DNA of 64,000 nucleotides from Curvibacter lanceolatus ATCC 14669 (GTDB lineage: Bacteria > Pseudomonadota > Gammaproteobacteria > Burkholderiales > Burkholderiaceae_C): NCBI RefSeq assembly GCF_000381265.1, contig NZ_KB906265.1:1-64000 (forward strand), given 5' to 3'. The notes under the pieces were generated by a model. It was given only the letters and a program-made list of their open reading frames with translations, was not told the origin of the DNA and made no database searches. The translations under genes and the position numbers were made by a program. Below, in pieces: positions 23,712-58,292 of the stretch (the stretch's first letter is position 1; every line of letters begins with the position of its first letter).

Positions 23712-24560
23712 ATGGCAATGACCATCAACACCAACGTCAACTCGCTGACGGCGCAACGCAACGCAGCCACCAATCAGTCGAGCCTGTCCACCTCCATCGC
23801 ACGTCTGTCTTCGGGTCTGCGCGTCAACAGCGCCAAGGACGACGCTGCCGGCCTGGCCATCGCCACCCGCATGGATGCCCAGGCCCGCGGCATGACCGTG
23901 GCCATCCGCAACGCCAACGACGGGGTGTCCATGCTGCAGACTGCTGAAAGCGGCATGCAGACCGTCTCCGACATGCTGCAGCGCATGCGTGAACTGGCCG
24001 TGCAGGCCACCAACTCGACCAACACCTCGTCCGACGTCGCCTCGCTGAACCAGGAATACACCCAGCTGGCTTCGGAAATCGGCCGCACCATCAGCGCCGT
24101 GCAGTTCAACGGCACCTCGGTGCTGACCACCACCGCCGGCTTCGACTTCCAGGTGGGTGCCAACTCCGGCCAGACCATCACCATCGCCTCGGGCACGCTG
24201 AACCTGGATCAAAGCTCCAACGTGTCGGCCGTCGTGGGTGGAGCCACCAGCGCCCTGACCACGGCTGCCGGCAGCAACAGCTCCAACGCCGCCAACATCG
24301 ACGCCATCGACAAGGCCCTGCAAACCATCAACGACAGCCGCGCCCAACTCGGTGCTGCCCAGAGCCGCTTCCAGAACACGGTGAACTTCCTGCAGAGCGC
24401 CGTGGAAAACCAGACGGCTGCCAAGGGCCGCATCATGGATGCTGACTTCGCCTCTGAAACGGCCAACCTGAGCCGCGCCCAGATCCTGCAGCAGGCTGGC
24501 ACCGCGATGATCGCCCAGGCCAACCAGTTGCCGCAGGGTGTGCTGTCTCTGCTGCGTTAA
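23712..24560 (+). CDS. fliC: Flagellin FliC1
   Basis: This flagellin has 282 residues: short, with complete N- and C-terminal D0/D1 helices (begins MAMTINTNVNSLTAQRN; ends AMIAQANQLPQGVLSLLR) and almost no variable D2/D3 domain. The centre (about 140-200) is rich in Ser, Thr, Ala and Asn, for example TTAAGSNSSNAANI, and offers many possible O-glycosylation sites. It is very similar to the second flagellin at 26432-27283: the two genes share 137 identical bases (23946-24082 and 26666-26802). Expression is from a good sigma-28 promoter. Lies upstream of fliD. Confidence 0.97.
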   Translation: MAMTINTNVNSLTAQRNAATNQSSLSTSIARLSSGLRVNSAKDDAAGLAIATRMDAQARGMTVAIRNANDGVSMLQTAESGMQTVSDMLQRMRELAVQATNSTNTSSDVASLNQEYTQLASEIGRTISAVQFNGTSVLTTTAGFDFQVGANSGQTITIASGTLNLDQSSNVSAVVGGATSALTTAAGSNSSNAANIDAIDKALQTINDSRAQLGAAQSRFQNTVNFLQSAVENQTAAKGRIMDADFASETANLSRAQILQQAGTAMIAQANQLPQGVLSLLR

Positions 24561-24589
24561 GCCATCGCCCGCTTCAAGTTGAACCTTCA

Positions 24590-24614
24590 AACCCCGGCAT
24601 AAGCCGGGGTTTTC
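24590..24614 (+). terminator. Terminator after fliC1
   Basis: AACCCCGGC (24590-24598), loop ATAA, GCCGGGGTT (24603-24611), followed by TTC. This is a strong stem with a short T tract, 30 bp after the fliC1 stop, separating flagellin from fliD transcription. Confidence 0.85.
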
Positions 24615-24699
24615 TACTGGAGTTGTGGCTTTTCATTTGGAGGTTCGCTTGCTAGAGTAGAAGAGCGCAGGCTCTCTGTCTGCACCAGGGGATACCAAC

Positions 24700-26139
24700 A
24701 TGACCATTTCTTCACCCGGCATTGGCAGCAACGGCCTTGACGTCAATTCGATTGTCACCAAGCTCGTGGCGGTTGAGAGTCAGCCTGTCACCCTGCTGCA
24801 GCAAAAGGGAACCAAGATCCAGAGCACGATTTCGACCTGGGGCTCGGTCAAATCACAACTTTCGGCCATCCAGGATGCCGCCTCGGCCTTGCTGGACAAG
24901 GCCACCTGGGCATCGCGCACGGTCAGCTCCAGCAACAGCAGCGCCGTGACCGGGTCCGTGACCACAGGCGCACTGGCCGGCAACTACAGCGTGTCGGTGA
25001 CCCAACTGGCGCAATCGCAAACCACGCTGTCCAGCGGCATCACCTCCGGCAGTACCTTCGGCTCGGACGGGCGCCTGGACATCCAGGTCGGAACCTGGAG
25101 TGGCAACACTTTCACCCAGGGCAGCGGCTCCACGGTGAGCGTTGCGGTGAACGCCACCGACACCCTCAGCGACATCGCCACCCGCATCAATGGCTCCAAC
25201 TCGGGCGTCAGCGCCTCGGTCGTCACCTCGGGTGGTCAGGACAAGCTGGTGGTGCGCGGCGCCAACACCGGTGAGAGCAATGGCTTCCAGATTCAGGCCT
25301 TCGACAGCGGTGGCACGGCCATCACCGATGGCAGCACGGGCACGGGCAAGCTGGCTTATGCCAGCACCGGCAGTGCCATTGTCGGCATGGGCCTGTCGCA
25401 GGCCGCCAAGAATTCAGCCGCCACGGTCGATGGCGTGGCCGTGAGTTCGGCCAACAACCAGATCACGGGCGCGGTCACCGGGCTCACCCTCAATTTGCAG
25501 CAGGTCACCACATCGCCCGTCACCATGAGCGTGACGGCAGACACCACCACAACCACCAACAAAGTCAACGCTTTCGTGACCGCCTACAACCAGGCGATCG
25601 CGACCATGCGCAACCTCACCAAGTACGATCCAGGCACCAAGACAGCTTCGCCCCTGCAGGGCGACAGCACCGCCATCGGCTTGCAGAATGCGCTGCGTCA
25701 GCTGGTGGTGGGCAATGGCCCCGCCAGCAGCAGCTACAGCAGCCTGAGCGCCGTGGGCATCTCCATGCAGCAAGACGGCACGCTATCGGTCACCAGTTCC
25801 AAGTTGAGCACCGCCATCACCACCAACCCCAGCAATCTCGAGTCCCTTTTTGACGCCAATGGGGGCAGCAGCGCCACCAATGGAATCGCCCGCCGCATCC
25901 GAGACTTCGCCATGGCAGCCAACAACGTGGGCGGAACGGTCTCCAATCGGACAAGCGCATTGCAAACTTCGTTGACTCGAAACAACACCGATGTCACCAA
26001 GATGCAAGACCGTATCGCGGTGATCCAGGCCCGCCTCTACAAGCAGTACAACTCGCTGGACACCAACCTGACCAGCCTCAACAGCCTCAGCAGCCTGGTG
26101 AACCAGCAGATCACCACCTGGAACAAATCGTCCGCCTGA
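24700..26139 (+). CDS. fliD: Flagellar filament cap protein FliD
   Basis: FliD forms the cap under which flagellin subunits fold. The 479-residue protein has the conserved N terminus (SSPGIGSNGLDVNSIVTKLV), a Ser/Thr/Gly-rich middle, and the conserved C-terminal helices (VGGTVSNRTSALQTSLTRNN, QDRIAVIQARLYKQYNSLDT). AGGGG lies upstream of the ATG. It lies between the two flagellin genes, an order that is less common than fliC-fliC-fliD. Confidence 0.96.
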   Translation: MTISSPGIGSNGLDVNSIVTKLVAVESQPVTLLQQKGTKIQSTISTWGSVKSQLSAIQDAASALLDKATWASRTVSSSNSSAVTGSVTTGALAGNYSVSVTQLAQSQTTLSSGITSGSTFGSDGRLDIQVGTWSGNTFTQGSGSTVSVAVNATDTLSDIATRINGSNSGVSASVVTSGGQDKLVVRGANTGESNGFQIQAFDSGGTAITDGSTGTGKLAYASTGSAIVGMGLSQAAKNSAATVDGVAVSSANNQITGAVTGLTLNLQQVTTSPVTMSVTADTTTTTNKVNAFVTAYNQAIATMRNLTKYDPGTKTASPLQGDSTAIGLQNALRQLVVGNGPASSSYSSLSAVGISMQQDGTLSVTSSKLSTAITTNPSNLESLFDANGGSSATNGIARRIRDFAMAANNVGGTVSNRTSALQTSLTRNNTDVTKMQDRIAVIQARLYKQYNSLDTNLTSLNSLSSLVNQQITTWNKSSA

Positions 26140-26431
26140 CCCTGGCTCAGCCTTCCTTTTTCAGCCAAGGCGGCAACAGCCCGCCTGCGCCTCGCTTCTT
26201 CAGCCCCATCGCCCGATCTGCCCCGGGCGATACACAGGCCGTGCCCTCAGCAGACGCCGATATTCGGCAAAAGTCCTGAACTGAGCGGCCAGAAGCCCGC
26301 TTTTCCAAGCTTCTGTTTTTCTCCCAAGCCGAATAATTTTCCTAACACTCGGCTGGGATCGGTCGCTGTATTTCGTACAGACATCGCACCGTGTGGATCG
26401 TTCATCTTGCATTCATTGAAGGAGCCGTCCC

Positions 26432-27283
26432 ATGGCAATGACCATCAACACCAACATCAACTCACTGAACGCCCAGCGCAATGCGCAGGCCACCCAGATG
26501 AGCCTGTCCACCTCGATCCAGCGCCTGTCCTCCGGCCTGCGCGTGAACAGCGCCAAGGACGATGCCGCCGGCCTGGCCATCGCCACCCGCATGGACGCCC
26601 AGGCCCGCGGCATGGGCGTGGCCATTCGCAATGCCAACGACGGCATCTCGATGTTGCAGACCGCAGAAAGCGGCATGCAGACCGTCTCCGACATGCTGCA
26701 GCGCATGCGTGAACTGGCCGTGCAGGCCACCAACTCGACCAACACCTCGTCCGACGTCGCCTCGCTGAACCAGGAATACACCCAGCTGGCTTCGGAAATC
26801 GGTCGTACCATCAGCGCCGTGCAGTTCAACGGCACCTCGGTGCTGACCACCACCGCCAGCTACGACTTCCAGGTGGGCGCCAACTCGGGTCAGACCATCA
26901 CCGTGGCGTCGGGCACCCTCAACCTCGACCAGGCTGGTAACGTGTCGGCCGTCTTCGGGGGCACCACCAGCGCCCTGACCACGGCCGCTGGCAGCAACAG
27001 TTCCAACGCCGCCAACATCGACGCCATCGACAAGGCCCTGCAGACCATCAACGACAGCCGCGCCCAACTCGGTGCTGCCCAGAGCCGCTTCCAGAACACC
27101 ATCACCTTCCTGCAAAGTGCAGTGGAAAACCAGACGGCTGCCAAGGGCCGAATCCTGGACGCCGACTTCGCGACGGAAACCTCGAACCTGAGCCGCGCCC
27201 AGATCCTGCAACAGGCCGGCACTGCGATGATTGCCCAGGCCAACCAGTTGCCGCAGCAGGTTCTGTCGCTGCTGAAGGGCTGA
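26432..27283 (+). CDS. fliC: Flagellin FliC2
   Basis: This is a second flagellin of 283 residues, differing from FliC1 at only about 25-30 positions by eye, mostly near the N terminus and around residues 148-185. The D0/D1 helices are complete (MAMTINTNINSLNAQRNAQ ... ANQLPQQVLSLLKG). The upstream region has a sigma-28-like -10 (GCCGAATA, 26328-26335) but no good -35 at the expected spacing, so it may be weaker or differently regulated than fliC1. GAAGGAGCCG precedes the ATG. It is the last flagellar structural gene before the glycosylation island. Confidence 0.97.
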   Translation: MAMTINTNINSLNAQRNAQATQMSLSTSIQRLSSGLRVNSAKDDAAGLAIATRMDAQARGMGVAIRNANDGISMLQTAESGMQTVSDMLQRMRELAVQATNSTNTSSDVASLNQEYTQLASEIGRTISAVQFNGTSVLTTTASYDFQVGANSGQTITVASGTLNLDQAGNVSAVFGGTTSALTTAAGSNSSNAANIDAIDKALQTINDSRAQLGAAQSRFQNTITFLQSAVENQTAAKGRILDADFATETSNLSRAQILQQAGTAMIAQANQLPQQVLSLLKG

Positions 27284-31169: not shown

Positions 31170-31289
31170 CCCATTTGCACCGGGAATCAGCCCTTCCATT
31201 CGGAGCGAAGTCAGGACGGGGCCCCTAGAATTGATCAAAGCGCTGTGCTGACGGCGCACATCAATTTCCATCTGCCTGGAGCATCCGAC

Positions 31290-34473: not shown

Positions 34474-34483
34474 GCACCAGGTC

Positions 34484-37515: not shown

Positions 37516-37518
37516 CCC

Positions 37519-44914: not shown

Positions 44915-44974
44915 GCTGGATACCGATATTCCAAAAGCAGGCCAGAAGGCAGGCGACACCTACAAGGTTTGACG

Positions 44975-46084
44975 ATGAGCAACCATAAGATTTACGTCAC
45001 CCGCCCCTTTCTGCCGCCGCTGGAGGAGTTGATTCCGCACCTGCAGCAAATCTGGGCGAGCGGCCAACTCACGAATGGCGGCCCGTATCACCAGCAACTG
45101 GAGGCTGAACTGGCCCGGTATCTGGGCGTTCCCCATGTGGCGCTGTTCGCCAACGCAACCATTGGCCTGGTCACCGCGCTGCAATCGCTGCGCATCACCG
45201 GGGAGGTGATCACCACCCCGTACTCCTTTGTGGCCACAGCGCATTCGCTGCTCTGGAACGGGATCAAGCCGGTGTTCGTGGACATCGACGAAAAAACGCT
45301 GAACCTGGACCCGAGCAAAATCGAAGCCGCCATCACCCCCCAGACCACGGCCATCTTGCCCGTGCACTGCTACGGGCACCCCTGCGACGTTGAAAGCATC
45401 CAGAAAATTGCCGATGACTACAACCTCAAGGTGATTTACGACGCCGCCCATGCTTTCGGCGTGAAAACCGGAACCGGCAGTGTGCTCAAACACGGCGACC
45501 TGTCTGTCTTGAGTTTTCATGCCACCAAGGTTTTCAATACCTTTGAGGGTGGAGCCATCGTCTGCCCGGATGCCAAGACCAAGGAGCGCATCAACCACCT
45601 GAAGAACTTTGGCTTCGCCAACGAAACCACCGTGGTGGCCACCGGCATCAACGGCAAGATGAGTGAGTTCAATGCCGCGCTCGGCCTTTTGCAACTGAAG
45701 TATGTCGAGCAGGCCATCGAGCGCCGGCAGGCCATCGATCAACGCTATCGAGAACTGCTGAATCGTTGCCCAGGCATCCAGTGTGTCGACGGGGTGGCCG
45801 GCGAGACCGCCAACTATGCCTACTTCCCCATCCTGGTCGGCAGCGATTTCCCGATCAGCCGCGACGCGCTGTATGACCTTCTGGCCAGTCGCGGCATCCA
45901 CGCCCGGCGCTACTTCTACCCCTTGATCAGCGACTTTCCCATGTACAAAGGGCTGCCCTCGGCGCAACCCCATCTTCTGCCCGTGGCCCGCAGAATGGCC
46001 AGCCAGATCCTGTGCCTGCCGATCTACCCGGATCTCAGCGATGCCGAGGTAGAAACCATCGCCGGGATCATCACGCAAGCCTGA
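44975..46084 (+). CDS. DegT/DnrJ/EryC1-type sugar aminotransferase
   Basis: These PLP enzymes place an amino group on keto-sugars. The 369-residue protein has the family pattern: VALFANATIGLVTALQSL, VITTPYSFVATAHSLLWNG, DAAHAFGV and the PLP-lysine region VLSFHATKVFNTFEGGAIV. It most resembles enzymes that make 4-amino-4,6-dideoxyhexoses (VioA/FdtB type). No RmlA/RmlB pair for its likely substrate is in the window, so substrate supply comes from elsewhere. ATG at 44975 was chosen; a TTG two codons upstream is possible. Confidence 0.92.
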   Translation: MSNHKIYVTRPFLPPLEELIPHLQQIWASGQLTNGGPYHQQLEAELARYLGVPHVALFANATIGLVTALQSLRITGEVITTPYSFVATAHSLLWNGIKPVFVDIDEKTLNLDPSKIEAAITPQTTAILPVHCYGHPCDVESIQKIADDYNLKVIYDAAHAFGVKTGTGSVLKHGDLSVLSFHATKVFNTFEGGAIVCPDAKTKERINHLKNFGFANETTVVATGINGKMSEFNAALGLLQLKYVEQAIERRQAIDQRYRELLNRCPGIQCVDGVAGETANYAYFPILVGSDFPISRDALYDLLASRGIHARRYFYPLISDFPMYKGLPSAQPHLLPVARRMASQILCLPIYPDLSDAEVETIAGIITQA

Positions 46085-46114
46085 ACGCTTGGCCAGGCGC
46101 GCACCCAGGTTCAG
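46081..46114. terminator. Imperfect hairpin between convergent aminotransferase and transketolase genes
   Basis: CTGAAC (46081-46086) pairs with GTTCAG (46109-46114), with partial pairing inside. It spans both stop codons of the convergent genes and lacks a T tract; a shared terminator is possible but weak. Confidence 0.35.
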
Positions 46115-47079
46115 GCCAGAAACTCACGCACCCGCGCCGCGATGGATGCGCCGACCAGGCCGTGCCTTTCCAGCATGAAGCGATAGTCGGCAGCCGCCAC
46201 GAACTCATCCGGAAGACCCAATGCCAACTGGGGCGGGCTTTGGCGAAGCGGGGCCTTGTGCTGGGCCACGGCGGCGCCCAGGCCACCGATGAGCGAATGT
46301 TCTTCCACCGTCACGATGGCACGCGAACCCGCCAGGGCCTTGTCCAGCGCCTCGGTGTCCAAAGGCTTGAGGGTGTGCATGTTGAGTACGGCGGCCGACA
46401 CCCCCTCGGCCTCCAGCAGCTTGGCCGCCTCCAGCGACTCGTAGACCATGGTGCCGTGGGCGATCAAGGTGACATCGCGCCCCTCCCGCAACCAGATCGC
46501 CTTGCCGATGGTGAATTCGTAGTCTTCCGAATAGACCACCGGGTTGTTGACCGCGCCGGTGAGCCGGATGTACATCGGGCCCTGAAAGTGGGCTGCCGCC
46601 TGCACCGTCTTGACGATCTCTGCACAATCCGCCGGGCACACCACGGTCAGGTTCGGAATCGCGCGCATGACGGCCGCATCTTCGATGCCGTAATGGGAGT
46701 TGCCCAGAAAGGCCATGGCCAGACCGCTGCCGATGGCGACGGCCTTCACGTTCAATGCCATGTAGCCCAGGTTCATACGCACCTGTTCGGCAGCTCTCAT
46801 CGAGATGAAGGGCGCAAACGAGGTCACAAACACGTTGTAGCCCTCCTTGGCCAGACCGCCGGCCACCCCGACCAGGTTCTGCTCGGCGATGCCGATGTTG
46901 AGGAACTGATCCGGGTAGGAGGCCTTGAAACGGTCCAGACCCGAGGAGTTGCCCAGATCGGCCGACATCACCATCAGATCGGGGTGATCCGCCCCCAAAG
47001 ACAGGATGGCTTGGCCGAACACGCCACGGGAACCCAGGCGAGACCACTGCCGGGCATTGCTGGGAGTGATTTCAAGCAT
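46111..47079 (-). CDS. Transketolase, C-terminal (PYR and C-domain) subunit
   Basis: This is the second half of a two-subunit transketolase; the partner is the upstream gene. The 322-residue protein has SRGVFGQAILSLGADHPDLM, the ThDP-activating Glu in QFLNIGIAEQNLVGVAGGLA, FVTSFAPFISMRAAEQVR and VTVEEHSLIGGLGAAV. Split transketolases move two-carbon ketol units between sugars or onto aldehydes and are common in specialised pathways. GGAGG lies before the start at 47079, which overlaps the partner gene by 8 bp. Last gene of the ACP operon. Confidence 0.93.
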   Translation of the reverse strand: MLEITPSNARQWSRLGSRGVFGQAILSLGADHPDLMVMSADLGNSSGLDRFKASYPDQFLNIGIAEQNLVGVAGGLAKEGYNVFVTSFAPFISMRAAEQVRMNLGYMALNVKAVAIGSGLAMAFLGNSHYGIEDAAVMRAIPNLTVVCPADCAEIVKTVQAAAHFQGPMYIRLTGAVNNPVVYSEDYEFTIGKAIWLREGRDVTLIAHGTMVYESLEAAKLLEAEGVSAAVLNMHTLKPLDTEALDKALAGSRAIVTVEEHSLIGGLGAAVAQHKAPLRQSPPQLALGLPDEFVAAADYRFMLERHGLVGASIAARVREFLA

Positions 47080-47896
47080 GTCCGCCCTCCTCCAGTTCGG
47101 CCAGGGCACGCTCGTAATTGGCCTTGGTCAATCGGTTGTGGTGCCACTCATTGTTGTTTTCCATGAAGGAAACCCCTTTGCCTTTCACGGTGTGCGCGAC
47201 CAGGACCTTGGGAAGGCCGGGCGGCGTGGGCGCAGCAAACGCGGCCTGCAAGGCAGGCACATCGTGGCCGTCGACCTCCAGGGCATGCCAGCCAAAGCTG
47301 CGGAACTTGGCAGCCAGGTCCTGCAGGTCAAGAATCACCCGGCTGTCGCCGTCGCTTTGCAGCTTGTTGTAGTCAACGATGGCCACCAGCGTGTCCAGAC
47401 GCAGTTGCGCGGCCGACATGACCGCCTCCCAGACCGAGCCTTCGTTGCATTCGCCGTCGCCCAGCATGACGTAGGTCTTGTAACCCAGCCCCTTCTTGCG
47501 CCCCGCCAGCGCGAGGCCAACGCCCATGGACAGGCCCTGCCCCAGGCTGCCGTTGGACGATTCGATGCCCAGATCGAGGTTCATCACCGGGTGGGCGATG
47601 AGGTCACTCTCGTTGGTCTGAAAGGACTGGAACTGCGCCTCGGTGATGAAACCGGCGGCCAGCAGCGCACTGAAAAACCCCAGCACCCCATGCCCCTTGC
47701 TCAGGATGAAACGGTCGCGCTCGGGCCACCGGGGCTGGGCCGGGTCGACGCGCAACACCGATCCGTACAGGGTGGCCATGATGTCCACCATCGACAGCCC
47801 GCCGCCCAGATGGGCGCTCAGGTTGCAGCTGTGGCTGATGTCCAGGATCTTGCGCCGCATCAGGCGGGCCATCTGCTCGATGTGCTCGGTACTCAT
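47072..47896 (-). CDS. Transketolase, N-terminal (ThDP-binding) subunit
   Basis: The 274-residue protein has the transketolase N-half: AHLGGGLSMVDIMATLYGSV, DRFILSKGHGVLGFFSALLA, the ThDP/Mg motif GDGECNEGSVWEAVMSAAQL ... VDYNKLQ, and LVAHTVKGKGVSFMEN. It needs the product of 46111-47079 to be active. The start at 47896 has GGAAAG upstream. Donor and acceptor sugars cannot be told from sequence; an aldehyde from the LuxC/LuxE pair in the same operon is an attractive acceptor (inference). Confidence 0.93.
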   Translation of the reverse strand: MSTEHIEQMARLMRRKILDISHSCNLSAHLGGGLSMVDIMATLYGSVLRVDPAQPRWPERDRFILSKGHGVLGFFSALLAAGFITEAQFQSFQTNESDLIAHPVMNLDLGIESSNGSLGQGLSMGVGLALAGRKKGLGYKTYVMLGDGECNEGSVWEAVMSAAQLRLDTLVAIVDYNKLQSDGDSRVILDLQDLAAKFRSFGWHALEVDGHDVPALQAAFAAPTPPGLPKVLVAHTVKGKGVSFMENNNEWHHNRLTKANYERALAELEEGGHA

Positions 47897-47909
47897 AAGC
47901 TTTCCAGGG

Positions 47910-48662
47910 TCAAACCAGGCCCCCGTCCGCACGGATGACCTGGCCGGTCACGTACGAGGACAGATCGGAAGCCAAAAACAAGGCCACATGGGCAATTTCT
48001 TCGGGCGAGGCGGGGCGCTTCAGGGCACTGGCCGCCAGCAGCGCCTCGCGGGCAGCGGGGTCCATCTGCTCGTACATGTCGGTTGTCGTGAGGCCTGGCG
48101 CGATGGCATTCACCCGCACGCCCGAAGCCCCCAGTTCCGTGGCCATGCTCTGGGTGGCGCGGGCCAGCGCGGCCTTGCTGCTGCCATAGGCCAGCGTGCC
48201 CGCATCGGCCACGAAGGCCGCCGTCGATGCCAGGTTGATGATGGAGCCGCCGCCCTGGCGCGCCATCCAGCGAGCCAGCCCCTGGCTGAACTGCAAGGGG
48301 CCGAACAGGTTGACCTCGAAGGTCCGCCGCATTTCGGCCATCGTGGTCATCTGGAACAAAGCGCCGCTGGCGGTGCCGGCATTGTTCACCAGCACATCGA
48401 TCTTTCGCTTGTCGGCCAGGATGCGCCGGGAGGCCTCACGGATCGACGCCTCCGAAGCCAGATCGAGCGCCACCCATTCGAGGAACCCGGCGTCGGCACC
48501 CAACGGCGGGTCGACCGGGATGTCGGGCAGCGCATCCAATTGACGCGCACAGGCATAGACACTGCATCCATGGGCGCGAAAACACGTCAGGATGGCGCGG
48601 CCGATGCCCCGATTGGCACCGGTCACGACGGCCACTTTTCCTTGCAGCAGAAGGGTGTTCAT
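47910..48662 (-). CDS. FabG-like short-chain dehydrogenase/reductase
   Basis: This classical SDR has 250 residues: the nucleotide motif AVVTGANRGIGRAILTCF, NNAG in DVLVNNAGTAS, catalytic Ser and Tyr-Lys in SIINLASTAAFV and AYGSSKAALARATQ, and C-terminal GQVIRADGGLV. It could reduce a beta-keto-acyl-ACP, or a sugar or polyol ketone. Its place in an operon with ACP and a FabZ-like dehydratase favours an acyl-chain role (inference). It overlaps the upstream gene by 4 bp. Confidence 0.92.
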   Translation of the reverse strand: MNTLLLQGKVAVVTGANRGIGRAILTCFRAHGCSVYACARQLDALPDIPVDPPLGADAGFLEWVALDLASEASIREASRRILADKRKIDVLVNNAGTASGALFQMTTMAEMRRTFEVNLFGPLQFSQGLARWMARQGGGSIINLASTAAFVADAGTLAYGSSKAALARATQSMATELGASGVRVNAIAPGLTTTDMYEQMDPAAREALLAASALKRPASPEEIAHVALFLASDLSSYVTGQVIRADGGLV

Positions 48663-49087
48663 TTCAATGGGGTGTCCACAGGACGGTCAATGGGGCCACG
48701 CAAATAGACCGGTTCCAACAAAGACCAGTCATCCTCAGGCATGGGGTTGCCCTCGGGAAACGGGGGCACGGCACCGGACGGTAGGCCGCGCAACACCCGC
48801 TCGCTCGAATAATAGGCGCGCAGGCAATGGGTGACCACACTGGTGAACAAGCGCAGGTCCTGCCGACGCAGTGCATCGACCAGCTTCAGGCGCTGTTCCA
48901 TGTCCAGCGCTTCAAACCGCTGTGCATGGTGCTGCTGCGCCAGATCACTCAGGCCCTGCAGAAAATCGGCCACCTGCTGCTCGATGCCGAAGCGCTGCTG
49001 GTAGGCCGCAAAGTCGATCGACGACGCAGGCGGTGCATGGAGCGCCTCGTCGCCTGGCAGCAAGGTGTCAAGAACCAGATTCAACAT
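48659..49087 (-). CDS. Gluconate 2-dehydrogenase subunit 3-like small protein
   Basis: The 142-residue protein resembles the small subunit that accompanies membrane GMC dehydrogenases (LNLVLDTLLPGDEALHAPPA; FLQGLSDLAQQ; TSVVTHCLRAYYSSERVLRG; PEGNPMPEDDW). Typical members carry a Tat signal peptide; this one does not, so it is probably cytoplasmic. The start at 49087 lies 5 bp after the GMC oxidoreductase stop. Upstream in-frame residues (to 49303) only overlap that gene. Confidence 0.8.
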   Translation of the reverse strand: MLNLVLDTLLPGDEALHAPPASSIDFAAYQQRFGIEQQVADFLQGLSDLAQQHHAQRFEALDMEQRLKLVDALRRQDLRLFTSVVTHCLRAYYSSERVLRGLPSGAVPPFPEGNPMPEDDWSLLEPVYLRGPIDRPVDTPLK

Positions 49088-49092
49088 GATCG

Positions 49093-50694
49093 TTAACCCA
49101 ATTCGTGGAGTTGCCGTTTGATGTGATCGCACAGGTACAAGGTGAGCGCCTGCGAGGTGGCCACCGGATTCACGGCGGCGGCGGTGACGAAAATGCTGCT
49201 GTCCACAATGAAGAGGTTCTTGACGGCATGCGCCTGCCCGCAGGGGTTGACCACCGAGGTGGCGGCATCCTGCCCCATGCGTGCCGTGCCCATGATGTGC
49301 CAACCCGCATGCCTGATGGGCGCAAACGAAGCGCTGATCCGGGCCCCGGCAGCCGTCAGCAACTGCTTGCTGGCTTCCACGCCGTGCTTGAGCATGCTGC
49401 GCGTATTGTCGCTGAGGGTGTAGTGCACCTTGACCCCCGGCATGCCGCTGCTGTCGCGGTGCTCGGGGTCCAGCACGATGCGGTTGTGCGCCTCGGGCAG
49501 GTCTTCTGTGATCACGGCCAGCCCGGCGGTGTGGTTGTAGGTGCGCATGAACTCGCGGTGATGGTCCGGGCCCAGCGGAATGCGGCGCATGAAATACCCG
49601 TTGACCGCGGTCTCCACAGGCGGGGCCCCCCGCAAAGCCTGCAAGGTGTAACCCCGCACAAAGCCGCGCTGGGCGTCGGTTTCATAAAACTGCTGACTCA
49701 GCAGACAGCAACCATGCGGGCCGATGCTGGAACGCAGGTCCTGCTCGAACACCCCCTCGACATAGGCCAGCGGGTGCAGCATCAGATGCGTGCCCACCAG
49801 GCCTTGCTCATTGAGCAGGCCGTCCGGGAAGGCCGTGGACACCGAATTGAGCAACAAGCGGGGGGTGCCCAGACCGCTGGCGGCCACGACGACCACACGG
49901 GCCCGAAGCCGGTGCAAGGCGCCTTGCTCATCCAGATACAGCGCCCCGTTGGCGGCGCCCGTGCTGTCCAGGCAGATCTCGACGACACGGCAACCCGTGC
50001 GGACCTCCACCCCCTGGCGCAGAGCCTGAGGCCAGTAGGTGACATCGACACTGGATTTGGCGCCCTGGGCGCAACCCGTGTTGCAGGGCCCCAGGTTGAC
50101 ACACGGGGCCCGGTTCAGATGCCGGTGGGTGTTGATGGCGCTGTAGGCCGGCCACCAATGCCAACCCAGTTGATTGAAGCCCCGGGCCAGCGCCCGCCCC
50201 ATCTCGCCCAGCGGCACAGGTGGCAACAGGGACTCGTAGTCGGGATAGGCCGGATCACCCACCAGCCCCGCCACACCCATCTGCCGCTCGTTCTCCGCAA
50301 AGTACGGCCGCAGTTGCTCGTAGCTCAGCGGCCAATCGTCGGCCACACCGTCCAGCGAACGGACTTTGAAATCAGAAGGATGAAATCGCGGGAAGTGCCC
50401 CGAGTACAGGATCGTGCTGCCGCCAAAACCATTGAAATTGGCCAGCGAAATGGGCGATTGCGAATCATCGACGGGGTAGTCGCCAGGCCGCTGCCGCACG
50501 TTGGGATTGGGGCTGAAATCAGCTTGTCGGCTCAGCTCCCAGCTCGCGGTGTGCGAAGGGTAGCGCTCGGGCACCGACGCAGCCCCCTGCTCCAGGCAGA
50601 CGATGCGCAAGGCCGTCCCCTGGCTCAAGCGCCAGGCGGCGGCGGCCCCGCAGGCGCCGGAGCCGATGATCAGAACGTCCGCCTCTTGCACCAC
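49093..50694 (-). CDS. GMC-family FAD-dependent oxidoreductase
   Basis: The 533-residue protein oxidises an alcohol to a carbonyl with FAD. It has the FAD fold (DVLIIGSGACGAAAAWRLS), the GMC sequence NFNGFGGSTILYSGHFPRFH, VVVAASGLGTPRLLLNS, and the catalytic His and Asn at the end (RHAGWHIMGTARMG; VTAAAVNPVATSQALTLYL). There is no signal peptide. The acceptor protein is probably the subunit 3-like product of the next gene. The substrate is unknown; an acyl, polyol or sugar alcohol made by the operon is possible. Confidence 0.93.
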   Translation of the reverse strand: MVQEADVLIIGSGACGAAAAWRLSQGTALRIVCLEQGAASVPERYPSHTASWELSRQADFSPNPNVRQRPGDYPVDDSQSPISLANFNGFGGSTILYSGHFPRFHPSDFKVRSLDGVADDWPLSYEQLRPYFAENERQMGVAGLVGDPAYPDYESLLPPVPLGEMGRALARGFNQLGWHWWPAYSAINTHRHLNRAPCVNLGPCNTGCAQGAKSSVDVTYWPQALRQGVEVRTGCRVVEICLDSTGAANGALYLDEQGALHRLRARVVVVAASGLGTPRLLLNSVSTAFPDGLLNEQGLVGTHLMLHPLAYVEGVFEQDLRSSIGPHGCCLLSQQFYETDAQRGFVRGYTLQALRGAPPVETAVNGYFMRRIPLGPDHHREFMRTYNHTAGLAVITEDLPEAHNRIVLDPEHRDSSGMPGVKVHYTLSDNTRSMLKHGVEASKQLLTAAGARISASFAPIRHAGWHIMGTARMGQDAATSVVNPCGQAHAVKNLFIVDSSIFVTAAAVNPVATSQALTLYLCDHIKRQLHELG

Positions 50695-50700
50695 GCAGCC

Positions 50701-51189
50701 TCAAGCCGGTCGAGTCGGCAGGTACTGTTTGAGGATGTCCGGGATGGTGATCATCATCTCGGCTTCGCAGGCCACCTCCTGGTCGACATAGGCCACGCCC
50801 TTGCCCTTGCAGATGCCGCGCTTCCAGGACAACACCTCGGTGTGGATTTCAAACTTCTTGCCGGGCAGGACTTCCTTGCGGTAACGCACCGTGTGCGACA
50901 GGGCATGGGTCACCTTGCCTTGCAAGCCCGGCAAGGTGGTGATCGCCACCGTCAACATCTGGGCCAGGGCCTCGAGTTGCAAGGCCCCCGGCATGTTGGG
51001 CGCGCCCGGAAAATGCACGGGGAAATACCACTCGTTGAGGCTCAGGTTCTTGTAGCCGCGGGCGTACTGACCCGGCACCACCTCGTCGACATGGTCGATC
51101 ATCAGGAACGGATAGCGGTTGGGCTGGTAGGCCTGCAGCTGCACGCAATCAAGACTGAATTTCTCCACGGAAAACCTCATTTCATTCAT
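50701..51189 (-). CDS. FabZ-like 3-hydroxyacyl-ACP dehydratase
   Basis: The 162-residue hotdog-fold protein has the FabZ pattern: YPFLMIDHVDEVVPGQYARG and the catalytic WYFPVHFPGAPNMPGALQLE with His, followed by EALAQMLTVAITTLPG. It dehydrates beta-hydroxyacyl-ACP. The start at 51189 shares ATGA with the stop of the luxC-like gene; an in-frame ATG at 51180 (MRFSVEKF) is a close alternative. The presence of ACP in the operon supports an ACP substrate. Confidence 0.9.
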   Translation of the reverse strand: MNEMRFSVEKFSLDCVQLQAYQPNRYPFLMIDHVDEVVPGQYARGYKNLSLNEWYFPVHFPGAPNMPGALQLEALAQMLTVAITTLPGLQGKVTHALSHTVRYRKEVLPGKKFEIHTEVLSWKRGICKGKGVAYVDQEVACEAEMMITIPDILKQYLPTRPA

Positions 51190-52400
51190 TGAATATCGAC
51201 CCATCGGGACAGGGACGACATCAGGTCGTAGCCATCCCAATGCATGCCCATGTCCAGGGCCCGCCCGACGGGAACCACCCGGTCGATGCCCCGCAGCCGA
51301 TGGCGCACGACAAACGACCTCAGCAGTGCGACGTCCAGGCCGAAGTAGGTGAGCGTCTGAAAGCGCGGATCCACCCACGGGGCCACCGCGTCAATCGAAT
51401 CCACCGCCACCTCGTACACCATGCCGTGGTGCCCCCGGCGCGTGGTGGGTGAAGAGTGAAGGCCGCTGAGCGCCAACCGATACAGGCCATTGCCATGACG
51501 ATGGATGCGCAGCACCTCCTCATCCTGGACACTGCGGGCGCAGGCCTCGACAAACTTGTCCATCGCCGCAATCGGTGCCAGGGTGTAGCGCGCCAGTGCC
51601 TCGCGCTCAAACGCGGCCCACAGGCGCGCCTGGGCCGCCTCGACCTCGGAAGCCGTGCCCACCCAGGCCAGCAGGTGCGGCGACGAGCAGGCGTTCTGGT
51701 CCATCAGGTACAGGTCGTTGAACAGGCGCGAGCACAGCCCCTTCAGCTCGGCCTCGGGCAAGGCGTTCAATGCCGGCGCCCCCAGCGCGCAAAACGAGTA
51801 CCGGTCGGCGAAGGCGACCTCGCGTGAGCGTGCCGGGGTGGGGAAGCTGCGCATGTGCGCCACCGTGGCATCGCCCCCCCAGATCACGCGGCCGTCGGCC
51901 TGGGACAACCACCAGGCATTGATGTCATCGTCATGGGCGTAACGCAACAGCGCCACGGCCGAGCGCACCGACTCATGCTCGGGGCGGGCCAAGGTGGTGG
52001 CGATCGCCGCCAGCAACACATCCAGCGTCGGGCTTGCGGCCGAGGGCAGGCGCAACACACAGCTGTTGCCGCTGAGCAGCCCGAAGGCCAGCGAAAAGGC
52101 CGTGTTCACCGGCACGTTGGACGGACAGATGTGAAAGACAAGGCCCAGCCCGACGCGCAAACGATCGTCCTGCGCCGCCAAAGCCAGGCGCGCCAGATTC
52201 GCTTTGCGGCACCAGAAGGCAAAGGTGACCACATCCGGCAGATCGAGATGGCGCACGTCCTGCATCAACTGGCTCGACAGGTCGGCCAGAAACGCCAGCC
52301 GCGCCGGATCGAACACGGGCACCGGCAGCTCACACAGGCTGTCGGGCTGCCCGACCAGAAAATCGATCCGGGCACGCAATTCAGCGGGTATAGGTGTCAC
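51186..52400 (-). CDS. LuxC-like acyl-CoA/acyl-protein reductase
   Basis: LuxC reduces activated fatty acyl groups to aldehydes with NADPH. The 404-residue protein has the family core: GLGLVFHICPSNVPVNTAFS (nucleotide-binding), FGLLSGNSCVLRLPS, and the catalytic Cys in LMDQNACSSPHLL. It is shorter than Vibrio LuxC (about 480). The GTG at 52400 has AGGGG upstream and was preferred; ATG at 52436 is possible. It lies after luxE-like, the normal partner of LuxC, but no luciferase genes (luxA/luxB) are present. Confidence 0.88.
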   Translation of the reverse strand: MTPIPAELRARIDFLVGQPDSLCELPVPVFDPARLAFLADLSSQLMQDVRHLDLPDVVTFAFWCRKANLARLALAAQDDRLRVGLGLVFHICPSNVPVNTAFSLAFGLLSGNSCVLRLPSAASPTLDVLLAAIATTLARPEHESVRSAVALLRYAHDDDINAWWLSQADGRVIWGGDATVAHMRSFPTPARSREVAFADRYSFCALGAPALNALPEAELKGLCSRLFNDLYLMDQNACSSPHLLAWVGTASEVEAAQARLWAAFEREALARYTLAPIAAMDKFVEACARSVQDEEVLRIHRHGNGLYRLALSGLHSSPTTRRGHHGMVYEVAVDSIDAVAPWVDPRFQTLTYFGLDVALLRSFVVRHRLRGIDRVVPVGRALDMGMHWDGYDLMSSLSRWVDIQ

Positions 52401-53442
52401 TGCAACCCCTGACTTCGGCCTGCTGGATGCGGCCATGAACCTTGAAATGACGCCCCATGCGGCCGCAGGGGCAATCGTCCTCACCGCCCCACTCGCCCAG
52501 GTCTTCGCTCAGCAGGATGTGGCCGGGGTAGCTGCGGGGGATCACCGACAGCACTTCAATCAGCCCCGTCTTGCCCGGGCCCAGCGCTGAAAAATCATGC
52601 GGGTCGCGAATGATGAGCTCGGAGTACGACGAAGCATGCAGTTGCCCGGCCTCACACTCCATGAAGATCGAGCCGGTCTGCTCGACCATGCCGTAGTAGT
52701 TGTGAACCCGACGCAGCCCGGCGACCTGGGCCAGCCGGGCCTTGAAGACAGGCGCATCGACGGCCTGGGCGAGCATTTGCTTCCACCCCCCGCCATGGAT
52801 CAACACCCCACGCTCCAGCGGCAGATGCTGTGCCTGGTCCTCCAGCGCCAGCACCAGGTGCTGCCAGACCATGAAGGTGAAGCCGAACAGCAGGATCGGG
52901 CCGTCCGGGTACTTCTCGAGAAAGCGCATCACCCGCGGCAGATTCAGCTGCATGTCGTCGTCGAGCGCAAACTCCACCTCGCGGCCGAACATGGAAAAGC
53001 CCAGGATGCCGGCAGTGCGCGCCGAGAACTTGAGCCGGTCCGACACGGTGGAGCGGCTGTCGATCACCAGCATGGGCAGGCGCTGGGGGCCGATGAAGTC
53101 GGCCATGATCTTGGCCAGCACCTTGATTTGCAAGGCGGCCGTCGCCTTGTCCAGAAAGATCCTGGACAACTTCCCCCCCGTGCCCGACGAGGTCATGGTC
53201 TTGACGATGTCGCTGTGCGGCACGCTCAGAAGCTCCATTTCCTTGAACAGTCGAACCGGCAGGAAAGGCAGATCCTCCAGGCTTGGAGCGACGGGAGACG
53301 GTGACCACAGCCGGTCGAGCACCCTGGCGTAGGGCTCGCAGTGCGCACGGTGCCAGTCGAGCAACTGCTGCAGTTGCCCGCCCAGGAACTCGCGCTTGGC
53401 CGCCGAGGCCAAGCCATAGGGTGGGATTGAGGACAGGTCCAT
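52381..53442 (-). CDS. LuxE-like acyl-protein synthetase
   Basis: LuxE activates a carboxylic acid as an acyl-adenylate, forms an acyl-enzyme and passes the chain to LuxC. The 353-residue protein shows DLPFLPVRLFKEMELLSVP, the phosphate-loop-like TMTSSGTGGKLSRIFLDKAT, FTFMVWQHLVLALED, YYGMVEQTGSIFMECEAGQL and HILLSEDLGEWGGEDDCPCG. The start is ATG at 53442, sharing its A with the TGA of the ligase gene; a TTG is one codon upstream. It overlaps the luxC-like gene by 20 bp. Confidence 0.92.
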   Translation of the reverse strand: MDLSSIPPYGLASAAKREFLGGQLQQLLDWHRAHCEPYARVLDRLWSPSPVAPSLEDLPFLPVRLFKEMELLSVPHSDIVKTMTSSGTGGKLSRIFLDKATAALQIKVLAKIMADFIGPQRLPMLVIDSRSTVSDRLKFSARTAGILGFSMFGREVEFALDDDMQLNLPRVMRFLEKYPDGPILLFGFTFMVWQHLVLALEDQAQHLPLERGVLIHGGGWKQMLAQAVDAPVFKARLAQVAGLRRVHNYYGMVEQTGSIFMECEAGQLHASSYSELIIRDPHDFSALGPGKTGLIEVLSVIPRSYPGHILLSEDLGEWGGEDDCPCGRMGRHFKVHGRIQQAEVRGCSDTYTR

Positions 53443-54860
53443 CAAACTGCCGCACTCAGGCGTGGATAGTCGATTTTTCCCGAGTCCAGGCGTGGCAACG
53501 CGGGCAGCGCGTGCAGCGACAAGGTCGAGCGATTCACATTCAACAGGCCGGCCAGCTCATCACGCAGCACCGGCAGCCCGGCGGCATCGGGGGCTTGAAC
53601 CGAAATGCAAAGGCGATCATCCACACCCCAGGCCGCCGCGGCCAGCCCACGCTGCTCCAGCAACTGTTCAACAGCCGCCAGCGACACACGCACCCCATGG
53701 ATCTTCAGAAAACGATGCAGGCGGCCTTCGATGTAGAAGCAACCTTCTGCGTCAAAGCGAGCCAGGTCGCCCGTTCGCAAAACACCCTGGTGGGTGTCGC
53801 CCAACTGAAGATCCGCCCTGGATTCGGCGTAGCCCAGACTGACATTGGGCCCCTGGTAGATCAGCTCCCCCGTCTTGCCCGCCTCCGACACCGCCTCGCC
53901 CTGTTCATCGATCAAACCCAGCTGGCCACCGGGAATGGCGCGTCCGATGCTGTCGGGCTTGAGCCCGACCTGCGCCGGCGGCAGGTAGGCCATGCGCGCC
54001 GTGGCCTCGGTCTGCCCGTACATCACGTAAAAATCGATGCCCTTGGCCTGACAGCTTTGATGGACCTGCAACACCCGCTCGGGCGCCAGCCGGCCACCGG
54101 CCACGGTCATGCTGCGCACAGAGCCCATGTCGAGCCGGTCCAGCCGCAACTTGAGCAGCATCTCGTAGGTGAAGGGCACGCCTTGGAAACGGGTCACCTG
54201 CTGCTGCCTCAGCAAGGGCCAGAACGCCCCATCGAACAAGCCCAGGCGTGTCAACACCACACAGGCCCCCACGCGCAGGTGGCTGTGGATCACGGACAGC
54301 CCATAGGAATAATTGAACGGCAGGGTGGTGATCGCCCGGTCATGCTCATCCAGCTGAAGGTATTGCGCGATCGAGTCCGCGTTCGACAGCAGGTTCTGCG
54401 CCGAAAGCCGGACCAGCTTGGGGGTGCCGGTCGATCCCGAGGTGGCCAGCAACAGCGCCAGATCGGGGTGGAGCGGCCCCGGTGGGGGTGACATGGGCTG
54501 GCGCCGCCGCCACAAGCCATAGCCGCCCTGCGACAACACGGCGTCGAAGCCTGGCAGTTCGGCCTGCCGAGAGGCCGCAAGCCAAACGCACTCAGGCTGG
54601 TACCGGTCAAGCAGGCTGCGCAACGCATGCTCAGGCAAGCCCGCCGCCAGCAACAAGGGCACCGCCCCGGCGGCCAAGGCAGACAAATAGCTCACCATGG
54701 AGCTCAGGTCGTTGTCCAGCAGCAGAAAAACCAGCTCTCGGGCTTGCCAGTGCAACTTGAACGATTGCACGGCCTGCTGCAGCTGCGAGTAGCTCAGCAC
54801 TGCCCCCCCGTCCAGCACCAGCGCTGGCCGCTGCGGAAAGCGGGGGCAAAGCAGGTTCAT
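53442..54860 (-). CDS. Acyl-activating (ANL superfamily) AMP-forming ligase
   Basis: The 472-residue protein has the adenylation motifs: LLLATSGSTGTPKLVRLS (A3), YVMYGQTEATARM (A5), VLRTGDLARFDAEGCFYIEG (A7) and the catalytic lysine in LPRLDSGKIDY (A10). The gene is adjacent to and overlaps acp (4 bp), so loading an acid onto that ACP (acyl-ACP ligase) is the natural inference. The acid cannot be read from sequence. The length is a little short for acyl-CoA ligases (about 500-550). Confidence 0.92.
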   Translation of the reverse strand: MNLLCPRFPQRPALVLDGGAVLSYSQLQQAVQSFKLHWQARELVFLLLDNDLSSMVSYLSALAAGAVPLLLAAGLPEHALRSLLDRYQPECVWLAASRQAELPGFDAVLSQGGYGLWRRRQPMSPPPGPLHPDLALLLATSGSTGTPKLVRLSAQNLLSNADSIAQYLQLDEHDRAITTLPFNYSYGLSVIHSHLRVGACVVLTRLGLFDGAFWPLLRQQQVTRFQGVPFTYEMLLKLRLDRLDMGSVRSMTVAGGRLAPERVLQVHQSCQAKGIDFYVMYGQTEATARMAYLPPAQVGLKPDSIGRAIPGGQLGLIDEQGEAVSEAGKTGELIYQGPNVSLGYAESRADLQLGDTHQGVLRTGDLARFDAEGCFYIEGRLHRFLKIHGVRVSLAAVEQLLEQRGLAAAAWGVDDRLCISVQAPDAAGLPVLRDELAGLLNVNRSTLSLHALPALPRLDSGKIDYPRLSAAV

Positions 54861-55102
54861 GCCGAAATGTCGACGCCGTACTTCTTCAGCTTCTCGATGC
54901 CCACGGTGTAGGAGCCGAACTCGATGATGTCTTCCGTGTCCATCATGATGTCGAACTCTTCTTCGAGCGCCGCGATCAGGCCCATGTGGCCGACCGAGTC
55001 CCAGGCGGGAATGCAGTTGTAGACAAACTTCTCATCCAGCACACCCGGCTGGACAGAAAAGCACTTCTCGAACACTTGGTCGTACCGTTCTTTGTTGGAC
55101 AT
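54857..55102 (-). CDS. Acyl carrier protein
   Basis: This is an 81-residue acidic carrier protein with the 4'-phosphopantetheine attachment Ser in PAWDSVGHMGLIAALEEEF and the helical tail typical of ACPs. It is the first gene of the minus-strand operon: acp, ligase, luxE-like, luxC-like, fabZ-like, GMC oxidoreductase, small subunit, SDR, transketolase N and C. GAGGTGG precedes the ATG. It differs from housekeeping AcpP (which has GADSLDxVE), so it belongs to a dedicated pathway. Confidence 0.95.
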   Translation of the reverse strand: MSNKERYDQVFEKCFSVQPGVLDEKFVYNCIPAWDSVGHMGLIAALEEEFDIMMDTEDIIEFGSYTVGIEKLKKYGVDISA

Positions 55103-57380: not shown

Positions 57381-57391
57381 AGTCATTCAAC

Positions 57392-58147
57392 ATGGACCTG
57401 ATGATCTACGGCTCGGGCAGCACCGGGCGAGAGATCGCCGACATGGCGCAACTGATCAACCGCTCAGAAAACAGATGGGGCACCCTTCATTTTCTGGATG
57501 ATCTGCGCCAGGATCAGGAGCATTATGGCCTTGGCGTTCTTAAAATGACAGACTTGAACGCTTGGCCAGCATCTTTCGAGTGCGTTATTGCGATTGGCGA
57601 ACCACAATTTCGCTTGGAAATGCATCAACGACTGAGCCAAAAAAACTTCACCTTGGCGACCCTTATTGACCCCAGCGCACGCATTTCACCCACGGCCAAA
57701 ATCGGACCTGGGTGTATTGTTGGACCAGGCTCTTTTGTCTCCAGCAACACGATTCTCGAAGAGAATGTGATGCTGGAGATCAACACCATTGTGGGCCACG
57801 ACATTGTGATCGGCAGCCACTCCGTCATATCCAGTTGCACGGTGCTCGGTGGTGCTGCAAAGATTGGCACCTGCTCATTCATTGGGCTGAACTGCGCAGT
57901 CAAAGAGAGAACCGTCATTGGAAAAGGCGTTGTGATTGGAATGCAATCCGCGGTGTACAACGACATTCCCGACGAAGTGATTGCCCTTGGCAATCCATGC
58001 CGAGTACTCAGGAAGAATGAGTCTGGTCGTGTTTTCAAGCCCTTGGCTTCTGGCTCCTGCGGCCCATCAGACACTGACTCAACGGGGCGCACATCTGCCG
58101 TCCCTGCAAACCACCATGCCATCCCGCTCGAGGGTGACAGGCTGTGA
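57392..58147 (+). CDS. NeuD/PglD-like sugar acyltransferase (left-handed beta-helix)
   Basis: These enzymes acylate amino sugars. The 251-residue protein has the N-terminal Rossmann-like part (MDLMIYGSGSTGREIADMAQ) and a hexapeptide-repeat beta-helix (about 90-205: IDPSARISPTAKIGPGCIVG, GSFVSSNTILEENVMLEINT, IVGHDIVIGSHSVISS, AVKERTVIGKGVVIGMQSAV). A tail of about 45 residues after NPCRVLRKNE is not part of the fold. It could acetylate the amino group installed by the DegT-type enzyme. It follows the radical SAM gene by 11 bp. Confidence 0.9.
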   Translation: MDLMIYGSGSTGREIADMAQLINRSENRWGTLHFLDDLRQDQEHYGLGVLKMTDLNAWPASFECVIAIGEPQFRLEMHQRLSQKNFTLATLIDPSARISPTAKIGPGCIVGPGSFVSSNTILEENVMLEINTIVGHDIVIGSHSVISSCTVLGGAAKIGTCSFIGLNCAVKERTVIGKGVVIGMQSAVYNDIPDEVIALGNPCRVLRKNESGRVFKPLASGSCGPSDTDSTGRTSAVPANHHAIPLEGDRL

Positions 58148-58292
58148 AATTACCCCACTCCGACCAAGACAAGGGTTGTAAAGACTGGGATTGACCCGGC
58201 TGTTGTGCACATCACCCGTGAGGCTCTCTCGATACATTAGTGTCAAGCCTTGGCGTTTCCCCAAGGCAACGGCCTCAACAGGAGCAGCCCCC

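Follow-up and report, generated by a model that had tools for sequence, protein, structure and literature searches.

A conserved, partly described ten-gene operon of Curvibacter lanceolatus, probably for a sugar-like side group made from an acid by reduction and transketolase lengthening

The sequence considered here, termed the window, is the whole stretch of 64,000 nucleotides at positions 1 to 64,000 (forward strand) of contig NZ_KB906265.1 of Curvibacter lanceolatus ATCC 14669, and the system in question is a set of ten packed open reading frames on its minus strand, at 46111-55102. The operon is real, conserved and partly described, and its central step is open to experiment: an acyl carrier protein (ACP), an AMP-forming ligase, LuxE-like and LuxC-like proteins and a split transketolase are encoded together with FabZ-like, GMC-family, gluconate-2-dehydrogenase-subunit-3-like (DH3) and FabG-like proteins, and the product is probably an unusual sugar-like side group, which would arise when an acid is reduced to an aldehyde and the transketolase extends this aldehyde. 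The operon sits in a flagellin-glycan island inside a flagellar and chemotaxis gene cluster, and the chances appear about even that its product is a hydroxylated chain of an uncommon kind destined for a surface glycan, here most likely the flagellin glycan. The one-strand arrangement and the families assigned to the ten genes in an earlier reading of the letters alone (the original prediction) are borne out by the open reading frames, by Pfam for nine of the proteins and by a fold model for the exception, the carrier protein of 81 amino acids.

The proposed pathway begins with the loading of a small carboxylic acid, the presumed substrate, by the ligase onto the dedicated carrier; the ligase family, the carrier fold and the carrier serine are directly recognizable. 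A carboxyl group would then pass to Cys348 of LuxE, on to Cys247 of LuxC, and be reduced to an aldehyde, a reaction suggested by the two cysteines, which are invariant wherever the matches cover them. In the third step, the split transketolase would take a two-carbon ketol unit from hydroxypyruvate or a ketose of central metabolism and add it to this aldehyde, giving R-CHOH-CO-CH2OH; the intact thiamine diphosphate (ThDP) site and the loss of three recognition residues point to it, with acceptor and donor both presumed, and it is held to be slightly better than an even chance. FabG, FabZ and the GMC/DH3 pair may, judging by their families, reduce, dehydrate or oxidise the new end. Finally, a sugar would receive the group, in the simplest case as an N-acyl substituent placed by a PglD-like transferase on the amino sugar of a DegT enzyme; this step, which is suggested by the neighbourhood, falls somewhat short of an even chance. 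A version with a dicarboxylic starter, one end of which would remain carrier-bound during reduction and extension at the other end, would explain the joint travel of ligase, carrier, LuxE and LuxC, and is nevertheless rather unlikely.

With the chosen starts, the genes overlap by 4-47 bases or are separated by gaps of 2-6 bases; a 211-base overlap of the GMC and DH3 frames is an artefact of the caller, which took an early TTG, and about 5 bases are left if DH3 begins near 49087. The carrier (54857..55102) has no match in Pfam or NCBIfam. Its AlphaFold model (pLDDT 95) shows the ACP fold, with helices at residues 3-15, 36-50, 56-61 and 65-73 and the phosphopantetheine serine, Ser36, opening helix II. 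The 50 matches listed by Foldseek for this model are carrier proteins or carrier-holding complexes, with TM values to the query of 0.59-0.82, none of those listed reaching E<=0.001; a few of the complexes are presumed to hold a carrier, which their titles do not say. The serine is kept in all 70 matches covering the position. The ligase (LIG; 53442..54860; PF00501, 170 bits) falls below the NCBIfam cut-offs, for example at 186 of 592 bits for TIGR03098 and 110 of 370 for the AmcH 2-oxoglutaryl-ACP ligase. The LuxE-like acyl-protein synthetase (52381..53445; PF04443, 158 bits) aligns Cys348 with the cysteine of the C-terminal KGCS motif of LuxE in PDB 7xc6, and this cysteine is found in 91 of 91 covering matches, tandem copies counted. 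The LuxC-like acyl reductase (51186..52427, longest frame from 52484; PF05893, 101 bits) aligns weakly with the LuxC of the same structure (E 8e-6), Cys247 being kept in 89 of 89 covering matches.

In bioluminescence, LuxE and LuxC act on long-chain acyl groups, and by this precedent the product might be a lipid, that is, a long-chain fatty aldehyde or a liposugar. Such a product has been guessed for related islands: a liposugar was proposed both for Aeromonas in 2021 and for Dickeya in 2020, and the Enterobacteriaceae 2016 paper, to which the Dickeya authors refer for the idea, infers fatty-acid-synthesis genes in the glycan, according to the available portions of this literature. However, the scores of LuxE and LuxC against the long-chain equivalogs of NCBIfam are only 48 of 550 and 35 of 750 bits, Pfam finds no ketoacyl synthase among the ten genes, and the companion genes are sugar genes; a lipid is accordingly considered improbable.

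The six remaining genes are those for the modification and lengthening of the chain in the proposed pathway. The FabZ-like dehydratase (50701..51183, longest frame from 51378) matches the FabA-like Pfam family with 86 bits and NF000582 with 120.5 bits, above the cut-off of 113, and its matches keep His57 in 37 of 39 and Glu71 in 39 of 39; besides itself, a search of 60 genomes, all kin of the window's organism, returned for it only matches of 34-43% identity. The FAD oxidoreductase of the GMC family (49093..50694; PF00732/PF05199; GMC_oxred C and N domains, 81 and 58 bits) is followed by DH3 (48659..49303, probable start near 49087; PF13618, 28 bits over a cut-off of 23.4), the FabG-like short-chain dehydrogenase/reductase (47910..48662; PF13561, 182 bits), the ThDP-binding half of the transketolase, TK_N (47072..47932; PF00456, 151 bits; nearest solved structure 6yak, E 4e-64), and the pyrimidine-binding half, TK_C (46111..47085, longest frame from 47109; PF02779, 114 bits, and PF02780, 97 bits; nearest solved 6yaj, E 1e-70). 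The families of the ligase, ACP, FabG and FabZ occur in metabolism as well, which would suit fatty-acid salvage or another general role having no link to a glycan, but no LuxE match at E<=1e-3 occurs in 8 genomes of the same genus, and the operon lies inside the flagellin-glycan island and recurs beside sugar genes, which makes such a role highly improbable.

The transketolase of the window possesses the ThDP site and the catalytic His and Glu of the enzyme: in the numbering of E. coli TktA, TK_N keeps H26, H66, H100, D155, N185 and H261, and TK_C keeps R358, S385, E411 and H473. The substrate-recognition residues are replaced (H461G, D469L, R520G), and each of the three is found in none of 34 LuxE-linked TK_C sequences, the window, two copies from L089 and one partial sequence included; Glu411 is kept in 34 and His473 in 32 of these. 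At positions 461/469/473/520, TktA has H, D, H, R; ten of ten DXS-like sequences have R, D, H, R, and nine split transketolases of relatives, taken as a yardstick from genomes that lack a LuxE match save a weak one in G019 (E 1e-4), have L, Y, H, R in six cases and A/G, A/L, H, G in three. In TktA, H461 and R358 are taken to bind the phosphate and D469 to recognise the 2-hydroxyl. Two of the three lost sites, D469 and R520, are also changed in the laboratory-evolved TktA variant S385Y/D469T/R520Q, in which, as described in the available part of the paper, the target was shifted stepwise away from phosphorylated aldehydes, first to non-phosphorylated polar, next to non-polar aliphatic and finally to aromatic ones, S385 contacting the substrate phosphate and R520Q widening the funnel (PMC5073344). 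Judged from its residues, the pocket in the operon looks fit for an unphosphorylated aldehyde.

The setting of these enzymes was compared among relatives. At least 579 LuxE relatives were confirmed in the species-genome collection, and the best 80 loci were analysed, with bit thresholds for gene presence and rules of overlap and distance that are our own and with Pfam scans of chosen proteins in the locus flanks. LuxC is found in 79, the ligase in 76, ACP in 67, both transketolase halves in 31 and an ALS-like ThDP enzyme in 14 of the 80. Of the 50 loci with a length of 19 kb or more, 49 have ACP, ligase and LuxC beside LuxE; a split transketolase is present in 25, an ALS-like enzyme in 10, both in none and neither in 15 (Fisher p=6e-4, with related loci counted as independent), and FabG is found in 24 of the 25 long transketolase loci. 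This pairing of the ACP/ligase/LuxE/LuxC core with either a split transketolase or an ALS-like enzyme, never with both, is new here. The relatives of TK_C at E<=1e-20 in the 60 related genomes number 75, the genome itself included, many being in long DXS-like frames; as a rough gauge, at about 0.3 per Mb, 50 stretches of 21 kb each would contain some 0.3 by chance against the 25 seen, the phyla of these genomes differing from those of the loci. In 30 of 30 transketolase genomes, which were chosen for having one there, the best TK_C match is the one near LuxE. Thus, the passage of the aldehyde from LuxE/LuxC to the transketolase, as put forward in the original prediction, gains support of an indirect kind: the acyl cysteines are kept, and the step is favoured because two ThDP classes alternate on one aldehyde core and the transketolase pocket is altered.

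The trees agree with an exchange of parts. A LuxE tree was made of 61 rows, the window and 60 loci, after 20 loci of less than 19 kb with neither ThDP enzyme had been dropped from the 80; on its starred branches, the transketolase label changes at least 11 times and the ALS label at least 6, an interchange expected if the ThDP module is swapped. The ALS label is somewhat clustered (16 of 500 shuffles as low). On the TK_C tree, with long rows included, the window and the seven loci having the full ten-gene set form one clade of 8 (100/99); the LuxE-linked transketolases as a whole do not fall into a single clade (3 changes; shuffled mean 16), the branch of E. coli tktA being very long. On the LuxE tree, L050, one of the seven, groups with ALS-type loci (100/99), and L080, another of them, stands elsewhere. 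The FabZ-to-transketolase cassette and the ligase/LuxE/LuxC core therefore appear to have been recombined. Five loci (L043, L054, L056, L073 and L089) each contain two LuxE-LuxC pairs with transketolase genes, which may represent second rounds of extension. More generally, a modular kind of chain building, neither fatty-acid nor polyketide, may be entertained, though tentatively and as something rather less than probable: a fixed aldehyde core would be joined by exchangeable ThDP cassettes, either the split transketolase with FabG or the ALS-like enzyme with a NeuB-like protein and FabZ, to build polyhydroxylated groups on flagellin, lipopolysaccharide and other surface glycans in many phyla, and the transketolases would have a naturally evolved aldehyde pocket of the kind engineered in TktA.

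The split transketolase might, in another reading, pass the two-carbon unit of a ketose to the carrier, giving glycolyl-ACP in the manner of QncN/QncL/QncM and NapB/C/D, with LuxE/LuxC as a separate branch. Two-component transketolases with an ACP are known from the quinocarcin, naphthyridinomycin, scleric acid and dnacin clusters, and QncL and SclQ4, in the accessible descriptions, bear a lipoyl attachment site and an acyltransferase part; however, Pfam finds no lipoyl or E2 domain in the ten proteins of the operon, and the ALS-type loci retain ACP and ligase with no transketolase, so that this route would be a surprise.

The order of events is the other matter to be weighed. In the order of the original prediction, the ACP-loaded acid would be modified by FabG and FabZ and released; LuxE/LuxC would then reduce it, the transketolase would extend it, and the free ketose- or acyloin-like product would be attached by a glycosyltransferase with no N-acylation. 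FabG, as given above, is nearly constant in the long transketolase loci, and 13 of 85 loci contain a thioesterase relative (>50 bits), which lies immediately ahead of LuxE in 10 cases, 8 of these with the ligase directly before it. Such a thioesterase calls to mind the LuxD of luxCDE, and fits the path from carrier to free acid to LuxE. These ten lie near 9.2-9.3 kb in L042, L055, L056, L057, L069, L074, L078, L083, L085 and L100, and PF00975 was confirmed in the three that were scanned, L042, L057 and L074. On the other hand, a tblastn comparison of L033 gives ACP, ligase, LuxE and LuxC only, with no enzyme of the FabG or FabZ type to act on the carrier; the activation of one carboxyl group twice would be wasteful; and a third of the transketolase loci have amino-sugar and acyltransferase genes nearby. 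This order is consequently rated as rather doubtful. A gene of the lactate/malate-dehydrogenase family lies downstream of LuxC in L039, L042, L055, L057, L061, L064, L065, L083, L096, L100 and L102 (Pfam-scanned in L057 only; of ten relatives in the 85 loci, eight are 71-78% and two 43-47% identical to it), which may hint at a hydroxy-acid substrate.

The thioesterases thus weigh against the preferred reading, in which the aldehyde made by LuxE/LuxC from the loaded acid is lengthened and moved to an amino sugar, and so do several further observations. The residue loss is not specific, because three of the nine split transketolases of LuxE-free genomes (L106, L107 and L118) lack the same residues. 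Arg358 and Ser385 are kept in the window and in its seven full-set relatives, and Arg358 in 25 of the 34 LuxE-linked sequences. The TK_C of the tandem loci L043 and L073 lacks the equivalent of His473, and among the LuxE-linked ThDP halves H100 is lost in L054, L056, L067, L073 and L089, among others, and D155 in L093, L095 and L100. The 15 of 50 long loci with LuxE and LuxC have neither ThDP enzyme in about 10 kb, which means that the core also works alone or that the ThDP gene is out of view. On the LuxE tree, the transketolase label shows hardly any clustering, 140 of 500 shuffles needing as few changes; swapping fits this pattern, and gain, loss and overlooked genes would look the same. 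In 21 of 31 transketolase loci, no PglD relative lies within 2.5 kb of the module. The interval from the carrier gene to the next gene (55103-55706) gave no sigma-28- or sigma-54-like match; the nearest minus-strand sigma-54-like match, at 55780-55794, is within that next gene, and over the window the sigma-54-like pattern occurs 98 times against 113 by chance, i.e., with no excess, and the sigma-28-like pattern 25 times against 12.6, i.e., with an excess. The accessible literature yielded no enzyme assay for this clade. In favour of a final N-acylation, PglD relatives occur on the same strand at no more than 2.5 kb from the module in the other 10 of the 31 loci, and DegT in 8 of 31; in Azonexus L050, the ten genes directly follow relatives of an NDP-hexose 2,3-dehydratase (513 bits), a Gfo/Idh oxidoreductase, DegT and PglD; and vioA and maa adjoin the Dickeya cluster.

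The conservation of the operon is evident from its recurrence. By titles, the best 80 loci belong to Pseudomonadota, Bacillota, Bacteroidota, Planctomycetota, Spirochaetota, Synergistota, Elusimicrobiota, Deferribacterota and Melainabacteria, many of them being metagenome-assembled genomes (MAGs); within the class of the window's organism, LuxE matches at E<=1e-12 are found in 5 of 369 genomes, its own counted. The predicted neighbourhood of LuxE, LuxC, split transketolase and ACP recurs, and the full ten-gene set does so in 7 of the 80 loci, six proteobacterial and one of a Bacteroidota MAG: Herbaspirillum L024, Roseospira marina L026, Methylocystaceae MAG L027, betaproteobacterial MAG L030, Emcibacteraceae MAG L031, Azonexus hydrophilus L050 and, in a different gene order, Sphingobacteriia MAG L080. 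Two of the seven are named strains, Azonexus hydrophilus DSM 23864 and Roseospira marina DSM 15113. With such a recurrence, the set is not due to chance. Across the seven, identity to the window is 74-83% for FabZ, 58-73% for GMC and 28-49% for DH3; GMC and DH3 co-occur, in the identical 7 of 80 loci. In L024, an FkbM-like gene of the opposite strand separates TK_N from TK_C. Proteins of DUF4910/DUF2172/HTH_47 were observed near the full sets of L026 (18077-19897) and L027 (6874-8214), with 341 and 221 bits to DUF4910. The idea of a unique pathway was rejected in view of this recurrence and of a smaller form that has been published.

Flagellin had been suggested as the target, and this holds in part: the location in the window fits, but in the genomes of 30 of the 31 transketolase loci (L046 left out) a flagellin match was found in 19 and none in 11, many of these genomes being MAGs and possibly incomplete. 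In 6 of 30, namely L027, L050, L052, L070, L073 and L097, flagellin and LuxE share a contig at a distance of no more than 20 kb, and short contigs may hide more. Flagellin is therefore probably one destination among surface glycans, and its being the only target was judged unlikely. The flippase PF01943, considered as a marker of polysaccharide loci, was uninformative, lying within about 20 kb of LuxE on its contig in 2 of 30 genomes (by eye).

In the window itself, the operon is preceded on the left by che and fli genes, by flagellin, FliD and a second flagellin (23712..27283, plus strand; PF00669/PF00700 and PF07195), by a large glycosyltransferase frame and CDP-sugar genes, and by an ALS-like ThDP enzyme, a NeuB-like protein and a DegT aminotransferase; on the right, a radical-SAM/B12 protein, a PglD-like acyltransferase, an FkbM methyltransferase, motA, motB, cheZ and flhB follow. 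The convergent neighbour, a DegT/DesI-like sugar aminotransferase (44969..46084, plus strand; PF01041, 344 bits; TIGR04427, 303 bits under a cut-off of 650), is a candidate source of the amino sugar, and the PglD-like hexapeptide acyltransferase (57392..58147, plus strand; PF00132, PF17836) is a candidate for the final transferase. A second carbon-joining set was observed at 31245-39718 (plus strand), with CDP-glucose genes of the RfbF, RfbG and RfbH types, an ALS-like ThDP enzyme, FkbM and a NeuB-like protein; glucose-1-phosphate cytidylyltransferase (462 bits), CDP-glucose 4,6-dehydratase (501) and RfbH (733) exceed their cut-offs, and the gene content resembles ALS-flavour LuxE loci, e.g., L101, and the sfm genes of Shewanella. 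The radical SAM protein at 55707-57380 (plus strand) has its radical-SAM domain at residues 78-240 and a C-terminal B12-binding match at 442-526, a domain order which we take to be unusual, and its best NCBIfam match is the PhpK-type P-methyltransferase, with 116 bits against a cut-off of 600. The G+C content of 55707-59372 is 52.6%, compared with 61-67% in the other measured stretches, which suggests a foreign origin of the right flank.

Groups on flagellar and surface glycans shape recognition by the host and by phages. If the transfer of the aldehyde to the transketolase is true, the operon would stand for a widespread way of decorating flagella and surface polysaccharides with odd acyl or ketose groups, its transketolases would be natural enzymes for non-phosphorylated aldehydes, an activity sought by engineers, and the published liposugar guess for flagellin islands would become a testable reaction set. 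Among the known systems, the rfbKLMNO genes of Vibrio cholerae O1 provide a carrier, a ligase, a LuxC-like reductase and an acyltransferase for the N-acyl group on a 4-amino sugar. These tetronate genes are not known to include a transketolase. The perosamine of V. cholerae O1 is acylated with tetronate, and a tetronate role is ascribed to wbeL in the available text (PMC3441752). For sfmABCDE of S. oneidensis, the accessible description includes NeuB-like, ThDP, FabG-like and methyltransferase genes, a content similar to the ALS and NeuB flavour and to window positions 34484-39718; its ThDP enzyme is ALS-like, not a transketolase, no LuxE or LuxC is described there, and the likeness is one of gene content (PMC3765264). 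The sfm genes are needed for full flagellin modification by a group of 236-264 Da that is predicted to be nitrogen-free, with an outer part of C9H16O7 to C11H20O7 (PMC3765264). C9H16O7 corresponds, by our own arithmetic, to a hexahydroxynonanoyl group, a lead from the ALS/NeuB flavour.

The flagellin islands of Aeromonas group II and Enterobacteriaceae are reported to contain acp, an AMP-ligase, FabG, luxE and luxC, with fabZ in one strain, and the word transketolase is absent from the main texts of both papers (PMC7874193, PMC4875605). The closest published form is that of the Dickeya flagellar loci, in which the carrier, ligase, LuxE, LuxC, two transketolase genes and FabG are as in the window, next to fliC and adjoined by a maltose O-acetyltransferase-like gene (maa) and a VioA aminotransferase; in the accessible description, which contains no biochemistry, FabZ, GMC and DH3 are not listed, and the authors read the cluster as fatty-acid and sugar genes. 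A similar layout is found in Kosakonia L082 and Pantoea L097. The original claim that no pathway with this exact set had been characterised agrees with the CC-licensed PMC literature, in the accessible parts of which neither biochemistry of the set nor a form with GMC and DH3 was found (GMC and gluconate dehydrogenase not being search terms). The luxCDE fatty-acid reductase (7xc6) has the LuxE and LuxC families and their acyl-transfer cysteines in common with the operon, which adds a carrier and a transketolase and has no luciferase domain among the window proteins scanned. The split transketolase of Carboxydothermus hydrogenoformans (6yaj/6yak) has the same two-chain architecture and is the best solved match for both halves; its THAGL, GEDG and arginine-containing LGRSG motifs are, in the printed alignment, IGSGL, AFLG and LTGAV in the window.

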